From positions 1 through 64,000 of the forward strand of contig NZ_KE150422.1 of the NCBI RefSeq assembly GCF_000411295.1: a DNA stretch of 64,000 nt, in the 5' to 3' direction. The notes beneath the pieces are model-generated. The model was not told the origin of the DNA. It searched no databases and was given only the letters and a program-made list of their open reading frames with translations. The DNA comes from Paenisporosarcina sp. HGH0030 (GTDB lineage Bacteria; Bacillota; Bacilli; Bacillales_A; Planococcaceae). The translations under genes and the position numbers were made by a program. Shown here piece by piece: positions 5,160 to 11,202 of this stretch. Each line of letters opens with the position of its first letter. The stretch's first letter is position 1.

Positions 5160-6404
5160 TTATACCCAGCCACGGAAGCGAGAAGCTTCTGCAGTTTTAC
5201 GAACACCAACCATATATGCTGCTAATCGCATATTGATGTTGCGTGTTGTTGAAACAGTGTAAACATTTTCAAATGCGTCCACCATTTTTTTATAAAGTTT
5301 TTCGTTTACTTCTTCTTCTGTCCAGTAATAACCTTGATTATTTTGAACCCATTCAAAATAAGATACTGTAACACCACCTGCGCTAGCAAGTACGTCAGGA
5401 ACAAGTAAAATGCCTCGATCAGTTAGTATTTTTGTAGCTTCAGTAGTAGTCGGGCCATTTGCAGCTTCTACTACGATGCTCGCACGAATGTTGTGTGCAT
5501 TTTCAGAAGTAATTTGATTTTCAATTGCTGCCGGTACTAAAATATCGCAATCTAATTCAAGTAATTCTTTATTAGAGATTGTATTTTCGAACAATGTTGT
5601 TACCGTTCCAAAACTATCACGGCGATCCAGTAAATAATCAATATCTAAACCATTCGGATCATGTAAAGCTCCGTATGCATCTGAGATTCCGATTACTTTA
5701 GCTCCTGCATCACTCATAAACTTAGCTAAGAAACTACCAGCATTACCGAAACCTTGAATGACCACACGTGCCCCATTCATATCGATGCCGCGTTTTTTTG
5801 CAGCTTCTTCCACACAGATTGTTACACCTTGGGCAGTAGCGCGTTCACGTCCTTGAGAACCTCCAAGAACAATTGGTTTACCAGTAATGAAACCTGGTGA
5901 GTTAAATTCATCAATACGGCTATATTCATCCATCATCCAAGCCATAATTTGTGAATTTGTAAATACATCTGGAGCTGGAATATCTTTAGTTGGTCCCACA
6001 AATTGACTAATCGCGCGAACATAGCCACGACTAAGTTTTTCAATTTCGTTCATTGACATTTTTCGAGGGTCGCAAATAATTCCGCCCTTACCACCACCAT
6101 AAGGTAAATCAACGATTCCGCATTTCAATGTCATCCACATTGATAATGCTTTCACTTCATCTTCAGAAACCTCCGGGTGGAAACGTACGCCACCTTTAGT
6201 AGGTCCTACAGCGTCGTTATGTTGAGCACGATAACCCGTGAATACTTTTACTTTACCATCATCCATTTTAATTGGAATACGCACTTCAAGCATACGCAAT
6301 GGTTCTTTTAAAAGTTCAAACATTCCTTCATCATATCCAAGTTTGTTAAGAGCGTCCTGAATAACATCTTGTGTTGATGTGAACAGGTTTAGATTTTCAG
6401 CCAT
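5160..6404 (-). CDS. rocG: NAD-specific glutamate dehydrogenase (RocG/GudB type)
   Basis: The 414-residue enzyme interconverts glutamate and 2-oxoglutarate plus ammonium. GYRAQHNDAVGPTKGGVRFH contains substrate-binding Lys70; Lys94 and catalytic Lys106 of PYGGGKGG are present; a Rossmann motif GFGNAG lies near residue 220. The length equals that of the active Bacillus enzymes, and I see no GudB-like duplication near the active site. Downstream of rocD and near rocA, it would complete ornithine and proline breakdown to 2-oxoglutarate. RocG and GudB paralogues cannot be separated by eye; the symbol rests on context. A palindrome overlaps its likely promoter. Confidence 0.93.
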   Translation of the reverse strand: MAENLNLFTSTQDVIQDALNKLGYDEGMFELLKEPLRMLEVRIPIKMDDGKVKVFTGYRAQHNDAVGPTKGGVRFHPEVSEDEVKALSMWMTLKCGIVDLPYGGGKGGIICDPRKMSMNEIEKLSRGYVRAISQFVGPTKDIPAPDVFTNSQIMAWMMDEYSRIDEFNSPGFITGKPIVLGGSQGRERATAQGVTICVEEAAKKRGIDMNGARVVIQGFGNAGSFLAKFMSDAGAKVIGISDAYGALHDPNGLDIDYLLDRRDSFGTVTTLFENTISNKELLELDCDILVPAAIENQITSENAHNIRASIVVEAANGPTTTEATKILTDRGILLVPDVLASAGGVTVSYFEWVQNNQGYYWTEEEVNEKLYKKMVDAFENVYTVSTTRNINMRLAAYMVGVRKTAEASRFRGWV

Positions 6405-6485: not shown

Positions 6486-7679
6486 TTATTTATTGAATAC
6501 TTTTTGAATTTTTTCGATTGCCCAGTCCAATTCTTCTTTTGTAATAACCAATGGAGGAGCAAAACGAATGACCGTATCATGCGTTTCTTTACATAAAAGT
6601 CCAAGCTCTTTCAATTCCTCACAATAAGGACGAGCTTCTGTATTTAGTTCCATTCCGATAAATAATCCGCGACCACGTACTTCTTTAATAGAAGAATGTT
6701 CGATTTTTGACAGTGCATCTTTGAAATAGTTTCCTAGTTCTTCAGAGCGTTCTGCTAACTTCTCTTCTGTCAATACGTTCAAAGAAGCAATCGATACTGC
6801 ACAAGCCATTGGGTTCCCACCAAAAGTTGAACCATGAGATCCAGGGTTAAATACTTCAAGAATTTCTTTGTTGGCTACTACGCAAGAGATTGGGAATACT
6901 CCTCCTCCAAGTGCTTTACCCAAAATGTACATATCTGGATCAACATCTTCCCATTCACATGCGAACATTTTACCAGTACGGCATAGTCCTGCTTGAATTT
7001 CATCTGCAATAAATAGGACGTTGTTTTCGCGACAAAGTTCACGAGCAGCTTTCATGAATCCGGCTGGAGGAATGACAATGCCTGCTTCCCCTTGAATTGG
7101 TTCAATCAAGAATGCCGCTGTATTCGGCGTGATTGCTGATTTTAACGATTCAATGTCTCCGTAAGGAATCAAATTGATACCTGGAAGCATTGGTCCGAAG
7201 CCACGTTTGTAATCAGGATCTGAAGATAAAGAAACTGCCGCCATCGTACGTCCGTGGAAGTTTCCGTTACAAGCAATGACTTCTGCTTGGTTTTCAGCAA
7301 TACCTTTTACATCATAAGCCCATCGACGAGCTGCCTTAATAGCTGTTTCAACAGCTTCAGCCCCTGTATTCATAGGAAGTGCCATATCTTTTCCAGATAA
7401 CTCACAAATCATTTCATACCAAGGTCCTAACTGATCGTTATGGAATGCACGTGACGTCAAAGTTACACGGTCAGCTTGATCTTTAAGCGCTTGGATAATT
7501 TTCGGGTGACGATGCCCTTGGTTTACTGCCGAATAAGCAGATAACATATCCATGTATTTGTTACCTTCTGGATCCTTAACCCATACACCTTGTGCTTCAG
7601 AAATAACAATCGGAAGTGGATGATAGTTTGGCGCACCAAATTTTTCTGTTTGCGCAATAACGTTTTGTGAAACTGTCAT
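6486..7679 (-). CDS. rocD: Ornithine aminotransferase
   Basis: The 397-residue class III PLP aminotransferase converts ornithine and 2-oxoglutarate into glutamate semialdehyde and glutamate. The PLP lysine is Lys255 in [10 protein letters not shown], preceded by the IADEIQAG cofactor aspartate motif, and [17 protein letters not shown] matches the ornithine aminotransferase N-terminal region. Length agrees with Bacillus RocD (about 400). ATG 7679 follows GAGGAGG with good spacing; six upstream codons are not needed. It lies between rocA and the dehydrogenase, so the three minus-strand genes form one catabolic route, but about 530 bp of repeats separate it from rocA. Confidence 0.95.
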
Positions 7680-7758
7680 AATGTTTCGCCTCCTCAATTT
7701 TCAAAAAAAAGCAGACGCATCTTCTGATGTGCCTGCCTATATTTAATGTCGCTTTTCT

Positions 7759-7972
7759 TAATGTCTAGCTTCGAAGCCCAGCTCGTACCTAAACTTAGGC
7801 CTACAGGATGTAGGTCATGAAGGCGTTGCCGCAAAATAACTTTTTCCTGCATTTTGCGACGAGTAATCGCAGGAGCAGGACGCGGCATTCTTAGCCTTCC
7901 TTCCGAAACTTATTCGAAAGCAAGCTTTCGATTCGAGCCTTCTCGAGCTACTTTAGGGTTTCCCGCTAGCCG
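7759..7972 (-). repeat. Intergenic repeat, copy 1 of 3 (with inner insertion)
   Basis: This copy opens with TAATGTCTAGCTTCGAAGCC and contains a CGAAAGC-A-GCTTTCG hairpin near 7918-7933. It is longer than the other copies because of an inner segment (about 7800-7890) with the core TTTGCGACGAGTAA, which recurs at 36427. No credible gene lies in 7680-8209. Confidence 0.7.
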
Positions 7973-8091
7973 TAATGTCTAGTTCCGCAGGGCAGGCTGC
8001 GCCTAAGCTTCAAGCCCTCATTCGGAAACAGGTTTCCGATTCGGTCTTTCCAGCGCCGGCGTCAGCCATTCTACGAGCTTCCCGCTAGGCT
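7973..8091 (-). repeat. Intergenic repeat, copy 2 of 3
   Basis: It begins TAATGTCTAG and has the hairpin TCGGAAACAGGTTTCCGA at the place where the other copies have CGAAAGCAAGCTTTCG, so stem pairing is kept while sequence differs. It ends with CCAGCGCCGGCGTC and CTTCCCGCTAGGC. Confidence 0.7.
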
Positions 8092-8206
8092 TAATGTCTA
8101 GCTTCGAAGCCCAGCTCGCACCTAAGCTTCAGACTCTCAAGCGAAAGCAAGCTTTCGATTCGAGCCTTCCAGCGCCGGTGTCGAGCTAGCATGGGCTTCT
8201 ACGCTT
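8092..8206 (-). repeat. Intergenic repeat, copy 3 of 3
   Basis: It begins TAATGTCTAGCTTCGAAGCC like copy 1, has CGAAAGCAAGCTTTCG, and ends CCAGCGCCGGTGTCGAGC directly before the rocA stop codon. This TGTCTAG...CAGCGCC type resembles interspersed intergenic elements common in Bacillaceae. Confidence 0.7.
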
Positions 8207-8209
8207 TTC

Positions 8210-9754
8210 TTATAACATTTCAGATGTTGTTTTTGCTTGTAAGTGTAAAGTCAGGTAGTCAGGACCGCCTGCTTTAGAGTCTGTACCTGACATGTTGAAT
8301 CCACCGAATGGTTGGTATCCAACGATAGCGCCAGTACATCCGCGGTTGAAGTACAAGTTACCCACATGGAAGTCTTCACGTGCTTTTTCTTGGTTCATAC
8401 GGTTGTTTGTAATTACCGCACCAGTTAAGCCGTATTCTGTGTTGTTTGCAATTTCAAGAGCTTCGTCGAAATCTTTAGCTTTACAGATACCTACAACTGG
8501 TCCAAAGATTTCTTCTTGCATGATGCGAGCTTTAGGATCTAAGTCAGCGATTACAGTTGGTTGAATGAAGAATCCTTTAGAATCGTCACCAGTACCACCA
8601 GAAACTAGACGACCTTCACCTTTACCAATTTCAATGTAGCTCATGATTTTTTTGAATGCAGCGCCATCGATAACTGGACCTACGAAATGCTCATCTTGAT
8701 CTGGAACACCAACTGATAGAGCCTTAGTTAATTCTTCAACGCGGTTTACTACTTGATCGTATACATCTTCAACGATTACAGCGCGTGAACATGCTGAACA
8801 TTTTTGTCCACTGAAACCGAATGCAGATTTCACGATTGATTGAGCAGCTAATTCTAAATCAGCTTCTTTATCAACAACGATTGTGTCTTTACCGCCCATT
8901 TCAGCGATTACACGTTTAATCCAAATTTGACCTTCAGTTAATTTAGAAGAACGTTCGAAGATACGAAGACCAACGTCACGTGAACCAGTGAAACTGATTA
9001 AACGTGTGCGTGGGTGATCAACCATAAAGTCCCCAACTTCAGCACCAGAACCTGGAATGAAGTTTACCACTCCTGCAGGCATACCTGCTTCTTCTAATAC
9101 TTCCATAAATTTATATGCAACAACTGGTGTTGTAGAAGCAGGCTTCAGTAATACTGTGTTACCAGTAACCATTGCCGCAACTGCAGTACCCGCCATGATA
9201 GCGAATGGGAAGTTCCAAGGAGAAATAACAACTGCCACACCCATTGGAATGTAGTCATAACGGTTATACTCACCTGGACGGCTTTCAACTGGTTGACCAT
9301 CTTTCAAACGAAGCATTTGACGACCGTAGTATTCTAGGAAATCGATTGCTTCAGCTGCTTCAACGTCAGCTTCAACCCATGTTTTACCAGCTTCTTTAGA
9401 AAGTAATGCAGAGAATTCAAATTTACGACGACGCATAATTGCTGCCGCTTTGAATAATACATCAGCACGAATTTCAGGTTTTACTTTTTTCCATGTATTG
9501 AATGTAGCATCAGCGATATCCATAGCTTTAGAAGCTAATTCTTGGTTTGCTTTAGATACAGAACCTACAACTTCAGTTTTGTTAGCTGGATTGTAAGAAA
9601 CAATTTTGTCTTCAGTTGTAATGCGTTCGCCACCAATGATAAGTGGGAAGTCTTGACCCATATAACCTGCTACTGTTTTATAACCATCTTGGATGGCTTT
9701 TTTGTTTTCTTCTTTAGTGAAATCTGTAAATGCTTCATGTTTATAAGGAATCAT
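8210..9754 (-). CDS. rocA: L-glutamate gamma-semialdehyde dehydrogenase
   Basis: The 514-residue aldehyde dehydrogenase oxidises glutamate semialdehyde (pyrroline-5-carboxylate) to glutamate with NAD+, the step after ornithine aminotransferase and proline dehydrogenase. Visible signatures are [30 protein letters not shown], the general-base EMGGKD and the catalytic-cysteine region [12 protein letters not shown]. Length matches Bacillus RocA/PutC (515). ATG is preceded by AGGAGG. It is divergent from the RocR-like regulator with a 140-bp shared control region, in which I see no convincing -24/-12 sigma-54 promoter. Confidence 0.96.
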
Positions 9755-9894
9755 GTGAATCCTCCTATTTTTTATTTTAGTGCAAAATTAATTTGCGCTT
9801 TTATTTCGTTTACATCTATAATAATGCAAAAGATTGTTGCGTTTTTCAAGTGATATTTCTTATTTTCGTAAAAAACTTTAGGAGTGAGCCTCCC

Positions 9895-11202
9895 GTGAAC
9901 GATAAAGATCTTCAATTATTGCCGTTTTACCGTTTTGCAAGTGATCATATTTCAGTGGGAATCCACGCAATTGACCGGAATGGGCGGACCATTTTATACA
10001 ACGAAAAAATGAAAAACATTGAAGGCCTTGATTTACAGGATGTCGCTGACCGCTCCCTTCTTGAATTATTTCAATTCGACCAACAGGAAAGTACCCTTTT
10101 GAAAGTTCTGCAAAGCGGCGAACACGTGTTGAATGTCAAACAAACCTATTGGAATCGCAATGGCCATGAAATTACAACCATCAACGATACCCATCCTGTT
10201 TTTGATAATGGAGAATTAATCGGGGCTGTTGAGCTAGCACGTGACGTTACCACATTGGAACGCTTAGTTTATCAACCTTTGCGCCGATATGGGGAACCAA
10301 TAACATTTTCAGTAATTACGGCTGTTTCCGAATCGATGAAACACGTTATCTCAACCGCCAAAAAAGCGGCGATGGCACGTTTATCTGTCTTGCTTGTTGG
10401 TGAAGCTGGAACCGGAAAAGACTTGGTCGCTGAAGGCATTCATTATGAATTATCGCCACCTTTGTCCCATTTTTATACGTTATATTGCCACAACTCCGAT
10501 CCGACGATTCTCAATAAATTAAGAGAAGACATGATTGCGCTTGAAGCGAGCACGATATTTTGTGAACGAATTGACCTTTTGACTTTGGGTATGCAACAAC
10601 AACTACTGGAAATGGTTAATGACTCTACGCTAGGGGACCACTTATTTTTAGCAAGTGTAGGGGCAGACCCTGTGGATTTGATTGCTTCGGGAGAATTATT
10701 AAAAGAGCTTTATTACTTCTTCGCCTCCATGACGATTGTCGTCCCTCCCTTGCGTGAACGACGAGAAGATATTGATCCATTTATACACGATTATTTTGCA
10801 CGACATCGGGTTCGCTTCGGTTCAGCAATCATTGGCCTGACAGAAGAAGTACGTGACATTTTTCATTCGTACGACTGGCCAGGTAATTTAAAAGAAGTGG
10901 AAATCTTACTGGATGAGATCGCTTCGATGCTTACTGTAGAAGAAATGGTGACGTTCGAAATGTTGCCTCTGCATTTCAAATTAAAAATGCAGGAATTGCG
11001 GGAACCTCTTAAACGAGCAGAAGATTTCGTTGTCCAATCTGATCGTGAGTTACTGCCACTGGAAGATTATTTACGTGAAGCGGAAATGTACTATTTGCAG
11101 AAAGTGATGGGCATGTTTGAAGGAAATGTCACAAAAGCTGCAGTTGCTTTAGGAATGAGCAGGCAGAACCTGCAATATCGTTTAAGGAAGATAAGAAAAT
11201 AA
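9895..11202 (+). CDS. RocR-like PAS/AAA regulator lacking the sigma-54 contact motif
   Basis: The 435-residue regulator is built like an NtrC-family activator: a PAS sensor domain (about residues 10-110), an AAA+ domain (about 140-380) with Walker A GEAGTGKD at 169-176, and a C-terminal Fis-type helix-turn-helix (NVTKAAVALGMSRQNLQYRL). The GAFTGA loop is absent; the segment between Walker A and Walker B is shortened, and the Walker B acidic pair is replaced (STIFCERI, 219-226). It is therefore unlikely to activate sigma-54 polymerase and may act like TyrR on sigma-A promoters, or as a repressor. Divergence from rocA suggests control of arginine/ornithine/proline catabolism. GTG 9895 follows TAGGAG with good spacing. 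Confidence 0.85.
   Translation: MNDKDLQLLPFYRFASDHISVGIHAIDRNGRTILYNEKMKNIEGLDLQDVADRSLLELFQFDQQESTLLKVLQSGEHVLNVKQTYWNRNGHEITTINDTHPVFDNGELIGAVELARDVTTLERLVYQPLRRYGEPITFSVITAVSESMKHVISTAKKAAMARLSVLLVGEAGTGKDLVAEGIHYELSPPLSHFYTLYCHNSDPTILNKLREDMIALEASTIFCERIDLLTLGMQQQLLEMVNDSTLGDHLFLASVGADPVDLIASGELLKELYYFFASMTIVVPPLRERREDIDPFIHDYFARHRVRFGSAIIGLTEEVRDIFHSYDWPGNLKEVEILLDEIASMLTVEEMVTFEMLPLHFKLKMQELREPLKRAEDFVVQSDRELLPLEDYLREAEMYYLQKVMGMFEGNVTKAAVALGMSRQNLQYRLRKIRK

Follow-up and report, generated by a model that had tools for sequence, protein, structure and literature searches.

RocR, described in Bacillus subtilis and Bacillus thuringiensis, carries in its canonical form a GAFTGA motif, a DE Walker B and arginine fingers, and serves a −24/−12 target promoter (PMC4428206). 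Its ligands are citrulline and ornithine (PMC4348106), and B. subtilis rocR is described as negatively autoregulated (PMC4813224). Among bEBP relatives, TyrR, DhaR, HupR, VpsR and YplP lack GAFTGA, Escherichia coli TyrR is sigma-70 dependent, and the sigma-54-less Fusobacterium and Jannaschia have bEBPs with altered GAFTGA and a proposed sigma-70 use (PMC3162934). VpsR of Vibrio cholerae, without GAFTGA, regulates sigma-70 promoters and reportedly needs no ATP, while in the NtrC proteins of Rhodobacter capsulatus and Caulobacter, which work at sigma-70 promoters, an L1 loop deletion removes GAFTGA; the Walker residues of Caulobacter NtrC are kept and needed (PMC10274813). With these precedents, GAFTGA-less, sigma-70-linked relatives are already known, and the new part of the present work is the stepwise rewiring. 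No account of a GAFTGA-less RocR-like group was found among the literature matches listed, a set that leaves out most subscription journals.

The window, the whole 64,000-nucleotide stretch of DNA analysed, contains a roc cluster with a divergently transcribed regulator gene. Positions below are those of the window, and L, G and f numbers are our handles for loci, genomes and families.

5160–6404, minus strand: glutamate dehydrogenase gene (gdh) of the roc cluster (Pfam and profile match)
6486–7697, minus strand: rocD, ornithine aminotransferase, proposed member of the rocA unit (profile match)
8210–9754, minus strand: rocA, L-glutamate gamma-semialdehyde dehydrogenase, proposed target (NF002852, 895.8 bits; TIGR01237, 812.7 bits; both above cut-off)
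9895–11202, plus strand: GAFTGA-less RocR-like regulator, PAS-AAA+-Fis HTH, 435 aa, GTG start
9943–10260, plus strand: PAS sensor domain, aa 17–122, mean 50% identity to 25 canonical RocR rows
10399–10422, plus strand: Walker A GEAGTGKD, aa 169–176, with Lys175 in 124/129 rows
10510–10551, plus strand: position of the shortened L1 loop, about aa 206–219, 15 residues shorter than in canonical RocR and without GAFTGA
10552–10575, plus strand: degenerate Walker B TIFCERID, aa 220–227, in which an invariant Arg225 replaces the catalytic Glu
11071–11190, plus strand: Fis-type helix-turn-helix, aa 393–432 (Pfam match)

On the minus strand, rocA is followed by rocD, glutamate dehydrogenase and a predicted alcohol dehydrogenase, while a predicted small S1-domain gene lies on the regulator's other side (the alcohol dehydrogenase and S1-type names are readings from the letters alone). 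The gene order is kept in most related loci of sufficient length, and the divergent spacing between regulator and rocA is nearly fixed across them; the closest named genome is that of Paenisporosarcina quisquiliarum, with 96% protein identity. The gap between rocA and rocD holds direct repeats (window 7750–8182; one of 104 nt in two copies, others of 47 nt and of 43 nt in three copies each) that resemble a small intergenic repeat element. The PAS-AAA+-Fis layout, the roc neighbourhood and the divergent position all recall RocR (the sequence-only reading had called the protein RocR-like), and the same pair of DNA boxes (below) occurs at the canonical Bacilli RocR loci fetched, B. subtilis RocR itself lying outside our alignment. 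The window regulator nevertheless has no GAFTGA, DE Walker B, arginine fingers or −24/−12 target promoter.

We aligned the window protein with 128 loci from overlapping sources (129 rows, including two broken copies, each read as its longer open piece) and compared these with 25 canonical ('GAFTGA+') rows, in which the motif reads GAFTGA (19 rows), GSFTGA (two), GAFTDA (two), GAFTGS (one) or GAFSGA (one). A GAFTGA-like motif is present in 0/129 rows. Specifically, the distance between K175 and E224 is 50 residues in 102/129 rows and 47–49 in the remainder, versus a K-to-D distance of 65 residues in 25/25 canonical rows; on this alignment, a 15-residue deletion relative to canonical RocR took out GAFTGA. 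The Walker A positions are kept in 124–128 of the 129 rows, depending on the position. In the Walker B register, where canonical RocR has LLLDE (or LFLDE and similar), the window protein has IFCER: the first acid survives as Glu224 (125/129 rows have E or D there), and the catalytic Glu has become Arg225 in all 129. The shortened GAFTGA segment and the intact Walker A had thus been read correctly from the window, and the claim that the Walker B acids were replaced by Cys-Glu-Arg applies to the catalytic Glu and not to the first acid. Furthermore, arginine-finger positions 269 and 275 hold Arg in 0/129 rows, and Gly256 takes the place of the sensor I Asn in 129/129; the canonical rows have K, D, E, N (24/25), R and R at the same places. 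Lys270 was considered as a replaced arginine finger and rejected, the same Lys being present in canonical RocR. Since every ortholog fetched has the same motif state, neither chance nor a sequencing deletion, which the sequence-only reading had named as a possible undoing of its claim, accounts for the missing motif.

Pfam assigns PAS, Sigma54_activat, Sigma54_activ_2, AAA lid and Fis HTH matches to the regulator. The best Sigma54_activat stretch covers model positions 3–66 of 168 only, and the sister model Sigma54_activ_2 spans positions 4–138 of 138. The predicted structure (pLDDT 83.9, pTM 0.55, 44 sequences) retains an AAA+ core, which together with Walker A is a bEBP trait; the GAFTGA loop, the Walker B Asp-Glu with the arginine fingers, and a sigma-54 in the genome are bEBP traits that are missing, and 'sigma-54 interaction domain' is a misleading name for the GAFTGA-less RocR-like group. 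FleQ is an ATP-binding protein that still acts together with sigma-54 at flagellar genes, and VpsR has an N-terminal domain unlike that of the window regulator. Among the fold matches listed, FleQ of Pseudomonas aeruginosa gave the top AAA+ match (6jdi, Z 22.8, rmsd 2.2, 226 aligned), tied with LuxO (Z 22.8) and many others, and VpsR, which differs in its c-di-GMP control (7v2b title), matched at Z 21.7 (7v2b, rmsd 2.2, 221 aligned). TyrR does not appear among the 50 fold matches listed, which is uninformative. The R. capsulatus and Caulobacter NtrC proteins are, unlike the window regulator, phosphorylated response regulators (PMC10274813).

Identity to canonical RocR is 50% in the PAS domain, 66% in the recognition region and 31% in the AAA part. 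The dN/dS against locus L001 is 0.018 for the whole protein and 0.022 for its AAA part (approximate, as dS is about 1), and ranges from 0.018 to 0.033 across comparisons in which dS is near or past saturation, the AAA part against L005 giving 0.10. By these estimates the regulator is under strong purifying selection, AAA part included. The many missing catalytic residues, and the regulator frames broken into pieces in L115 (genome G237) and L116 (genome G157), would suit a functionless RocR relic decaying after sigma-54 loss; given the open frame, the invariant residues, the retained Walker A, the low dN/dS (at the saturation just mentioned) and the presence of the gene in 233/250 genomes, we consider this reading highly improbable. 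Despite the broken regulator, L116 has seemingly intact boxes and promoter.

The window genome (3.52 Mb, 99.81% complete) gave no match when searched for PF04552, the DNA-binding domain of sigma-54, or for PF00309, its activator-interacting domain, although both searches match in B. subtilis and E. coli controls, and PF04552 found no match in the single-contig genome of the same species, G061. The check for sigL/rpoN proposed with the sequence-only reading has thus come out in its favour. A sigma-54-dependent activator whose sigma factor was missed in assembly or searches could appeal to the draft state of the genome (5 contigs); the completeness, the control matches, the same-species genome, and the lack of GAFTGA, of the catalytic Glu and of a −24/−12 element leave this explanation with very little credit.

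Across 250 genomes of this family of soil bacteria, PF04552 is present in 145 (rpoN+, E ≤ 0.001; 141 over the curated cut-off). The GAFTGA-less roc regulator, scored as present at a best E of 1.9e-107 or lower and as absent at a best E weaker than 1e-100, occurs in 233/250 genomes, with the two broken copies included and unfetched members taken as GAFTGA-less by similarity only; it is found in 133/145 rpoN+ versus 100/105 rpoN− genomes (Fisher p 0.32). Canonical RocR, called at E 1.5e-162 or lower (next match 2.4e-93), is found in 23/145 rpoN+ versus 0/105 rpoN− genomes (p 2e-6), and 18 of the 23 lie within about 3 kb of the rpoN match on the same contig. By these genome counts, the GAFTGA-less protein does not track sigma-54, whereas canonical RocR does; being equally common with and without rpoN, the GAFTGA-less state does not follow rpoN loss. 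Canonical RocR copies within the family (L261–L271) are mostly neighbours of rpoN and are accompanied by another rocD, in some cases by another rocA too, an arrangement that resembles a sigma-54 roc cassette.

We scanned roc intergenic regions for −24/−12 elements, requiring GG and GC at proper spacing and scoring 12 positions. At canonical loci, a site of at least 9/12 lies on the roc strand in 19/23, with or without 30-nt flanks (L249, L250, L254 and L256 have none), versus a mean of 0.22 loci with a site, and at most 2, in letter shuffles of the same 23. At GAFTGA-less loci, a site of 8/12 or better was found in 0/152 intergenics: 136 of type I (135 with no site, one scoring 7), 14 of type II (none) and two of f29 (both scoring 6). 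The difference has a Fisher p of 7e-22, the rows not being independent. The canonical count excludes L253 and L260, which are GAFTGA+ with no divergent rocA, rocD or gdh in the stretch; the 152 exclude L242 and L245, whose stretches likewise contain none of these roc genes; L241 and L244, which duplicate L203 and L206; and L243 of f37, in which 1.7 kb separates rocA from the regulator and contains a 9/12 site. L247 and L272–L275, also outside the 152, show no site. The scan of the window's own rocA promoter region found no −24/−12 element, as the sequence-only reading had stated.

The region between rocA and the regulator contains instead the following predicted elements.

9781–9797, no strand: box 2, TGCAAAATTAATTTGCG, 9/10, spaced 44 bp from box 1 and covering the predicted regulator −35
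9793–9798, plus strand: predicted regulator −35, TTGCGC (box 2 end plus one base), 18-bp spacer; sequence reading, conserved
9817–9822, plus strand: predicted regulator −10, TATAAT, sharing bases with the rocA −10 predicted below; sequence reading, conserved
9821–9826, minus strand: predicted rocA −10, CATTAT, 17-bp spacer, start predicted near 9814; sequence reading, conserved
9825–9841, no strand: box 1, TGCAAAAGATTGTTGCG, 9/10, within the −35/−10 spacer of the predicted rocA promoter
9844–9849, minus strand: predicted rocA −35, TTGAAA; sequence reading, conserved

The box consensus, TGCAA-N7-TTGCA, was defined on the roc loci of this analysis and not on published footprints. The two window boxes have one mismatch apiece and flank the predicted rocA start, so that the rocA strand reads TTGAAA, 17 bp holding box 1, CATTAT, and then box 2 just ahead of the ribosome binding site. 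A chance origin of the pair was rejected, as the 64 kb contain one pair 44 bp apart and 50 letter shuffles none. Taken singly, boxes with one mismatch do not exceed chance expectation in the window (6 versus 4.98 expected), and a genome-wide box search, with 243 matches per strand versus 127 for the reversed pattern, is not selective enough to delimit a regulon. No boxes were found ahead of rocD.

The arrangement is conserved among 110 unique type I intergenics out of the 136, in which named loci and G genomes overlap and rows are not independent. A TTG lies exactly 8 bp ahead of box 1 in 110/110 (TTGAAA in 81/110), the hexamer after a 17-bp spacer (N17) is CATTAT in 108/110, and the box spacing is 44 in 98/109, 43 in 8 and 45 in 3. 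The hexamer after a 20-bp spacer (N20) is TATTAT in 94/110 and TATAAT in 12/110. Of the type II intergenics, 13/14 fit the box and −35 (the exception is L124), with N17 hexamers CACAAT (5), CATAAT (3), CATTAT (2), CAGAAT (2) and CATCAT (1), and N20 hexamers that are AAT-something in ten sequences and CATAAT, TATAAT and TATATA in one apiece. The N17 spacing thus fits both ortholog types, and N20 mainly type I. From these conserved elements we infer that rocA probably uses sigma-A; with no sigma-54 domain match and 0/152 sites, the sigma-54 independence proposed for the regulator is strongly supported at the level of sequence. The further proposal that the roc pathway was rewired to sigma-A is consistent with the conserved sigma-A-type promoter, but the change spans the whole family rather than following rpoN loss.

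The box pair appears to be older than the promoter. At canonical loci, two boxes of at least 7/10 lie 40–45 bp apart in 14/23 (shuffled mean 0.37 pairs, largest 3, in 500 shuffles), and in the ten loci with both a pair and a −24/−12 site the pair is upstream of the site, which suggests that an enhancer pair was probably inherited and a sigma-A promoter placed on top of it.

TyrR combines a PAS sensor with pairs of palindromic boxes that lie over promoters. It is, like the window regulator, a GAFTGA-less bEBP relative, of another lineage and regulon; our comparison with it is through the NCBIfam TyrR profile only (89.9 bits, far below the cut-off of 576). We propose that a RocR-type sigma-54 activator lost its motor and retained its sensor and DNA-binding ends, and that it would bind the two boxes, which would have served the ancestral sigma-54 promoter as upstream activator sites. 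With the −24/−12 element gone, the putative sigma-A promoter TTGAAA-N17-CATTAT would now read out from box 1, where a dimer would cover the rocA −35/−10 spacer, and a dimer on box 2 would cover the regulator's own −35. These positions make TyrR-like repression the most likely mode. The protein, as an oligomer, would then repress its own gene as well as the rocA-rocD(-gdh) unit until its PAS domain senses an arginine catabolite, as the PAS conservation and the ligands of RocR suggest, and it would probably bind ATP without hydrolysing it. We give this reading, a ligand-relieved TyrR-like repressor of the rocA unit and of itself, a probability of about 0.58. Repression would be an inherited skill, since rocR of B. 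subtilis is described as negatively autoregulated; that the ancestral RocR is an activator counts against it. The word 'activator' in the sequence-only reading is doubtful, as boxes on a core promoter are a repressor's seat.

Classical sigma-A activators bind upstream of −35, and MerR proteins realign promoters with an over-long spacer. The regulator could still activate rocA through sigma-A, either from box 1 by a MerR-like realignment of the 20-bp spacer in TTGAAA-N20-TATTAT/TATAAT or by direct contact with RNA polymerase. The N20 hexamers of type I are nearer to consensus than CATTAT at N17 and may leave room for such a spacer-twisting activator, and the ancestor was an activator. However, the N20 hexamers of type II are mostly not −10-like while the N17 ones fit, the type I conservation at N20 is explicable by the TATAAT of the regulator's promoter, which lies there on the opposite strand, and no conserved box lies upstream of the rocA −35 in the aligned intergenics. 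We therefore hold sigma-A activation to be unlikely, if the nearest competitor of repression.

One natural loss bears on both modes. In G057, which has no rpoN match, adh-gdh-rocD-rocA adjoins the S1 gene with no regulator remnant found; the roc genes are thus still there, but neither of the boxes nor the TTGA-N17 promoter is. This joint loss ties the boxes to the regulator gene. Loss of the promoter along with the regulator speaks for activation, and a promoter released from its repressor might have been retained, making the case neutral to mildly against repression, though a single deletion may have removed everything. A second natural loss was looked for in G172, chiefly at contig ends, and no roc cluster was found there.

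The joint loss also bears on whether the boxes serve another factor, for example of ArgR/AhrC type, with the regulator controlling something else. Binding of the boxes by the regulator is predicted from sequence, and AhrC has a part at the roc operons of B. subtilis as well (PMC4813224). Besides the loss in G057, the occurrence of the same boxes at canonical RocR loci, the recognition region conserved with canonical RocR and the near-fixed divergent position beside rocA all argue against another factor, which we judge improbable.

It is difficult to observe a regulon midway in its escape from an alternative sigma factor, and here apparent intermediates coexist: canonical RocR with its −24/−12 site, f29, the partly decayed f37 and the fully dead motor of the window's family. 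In f29 (L241, L242, L244), GAFTGA is lost while DE and both arginine fingers are kept; f37 has DD and no arginine fingers, f38 is more decayed, and the window's family has E-R. All six genomes of these three other families have rpoN, as do 22/22 outgroup genomes, and the f29 loci L203 and L206 already show the box-1 promoter. These states suggest, as far as sequences can order events, that GAFTGA loss and promoter change preceded Walker B loss, with no need of rpoN loss. A quick-method tree (trait columns left out, 20 type I rows) places 45 GAFTGA-less rows on one side versus 25 canonical RocR-like rows on the other (SH-aLRT 93, not starred), and an order-level search for relatives returned, among the matches listed, only the window's family.

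A broader reading, to which we give somewhat less than even odds, is that a whole Bacilli family moved arginine catabolism from distant sigma-54 activation to sigma-A repression by putting the activator's enhancer pair to a new use: a sigma-A promoter would have arisen on the enhancer, the motor would have died stepwise (GAFTGA first, then arginine fingers and Walker B), the change would have helped to make sigma-54 dispensable, and BkdR would now be in the same change in the same genus.

Several other bEBP-like proteins were observed. A second GAFTGA-less type (L117–L135) is 40–47% identical, with FFAER in most rows and the Walker A Lys replaced by Ile in three and by Thr in one of 19 rows; it is the sole type found in some genomes and co-occurs with type I in others (G074, G120, G033 and G049 have second copies). 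In the window genome, L108 (G000:C1:34146-34634) is bEBP-like without GAFTGA and with FLDEIG kept, and L109 (G000:C1:1991210-1991650) is bEBP-like without GAFTGA and with LKELD.

A BkdR-like regulator (L145–L174; in the window genome G000:C1:453393-455441) has an altered L1 in rpoN− genomes: DAFAGA in G000, DAFVGA in G061, GAFVGA in G011, GSFTGA in G047 and a rewritten loop in G091, none of which has an rpoN match. GAFTGA is retained in the rpoN+ genomes G030, G072, G005, G024 and G042. About 95 nt after the bkdR-like gene, a −24/−12 site of at least 9/12 is present in these five rpoN+ genomes and eroded in the five rpoN− ones. In the window's genus, BkdR thus appears to be losing GAFTGA and its −24/−12 site in sigma-54-less genomes. 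The exceptions are G082 and G100, fragmented drafts with no rpoN match that keep GAFTGA, G082 also keeping the site. A further exception is g8, in which BkdR has lost GAFTGA in 18/18 genomes fetched, rpoN+ ones included.
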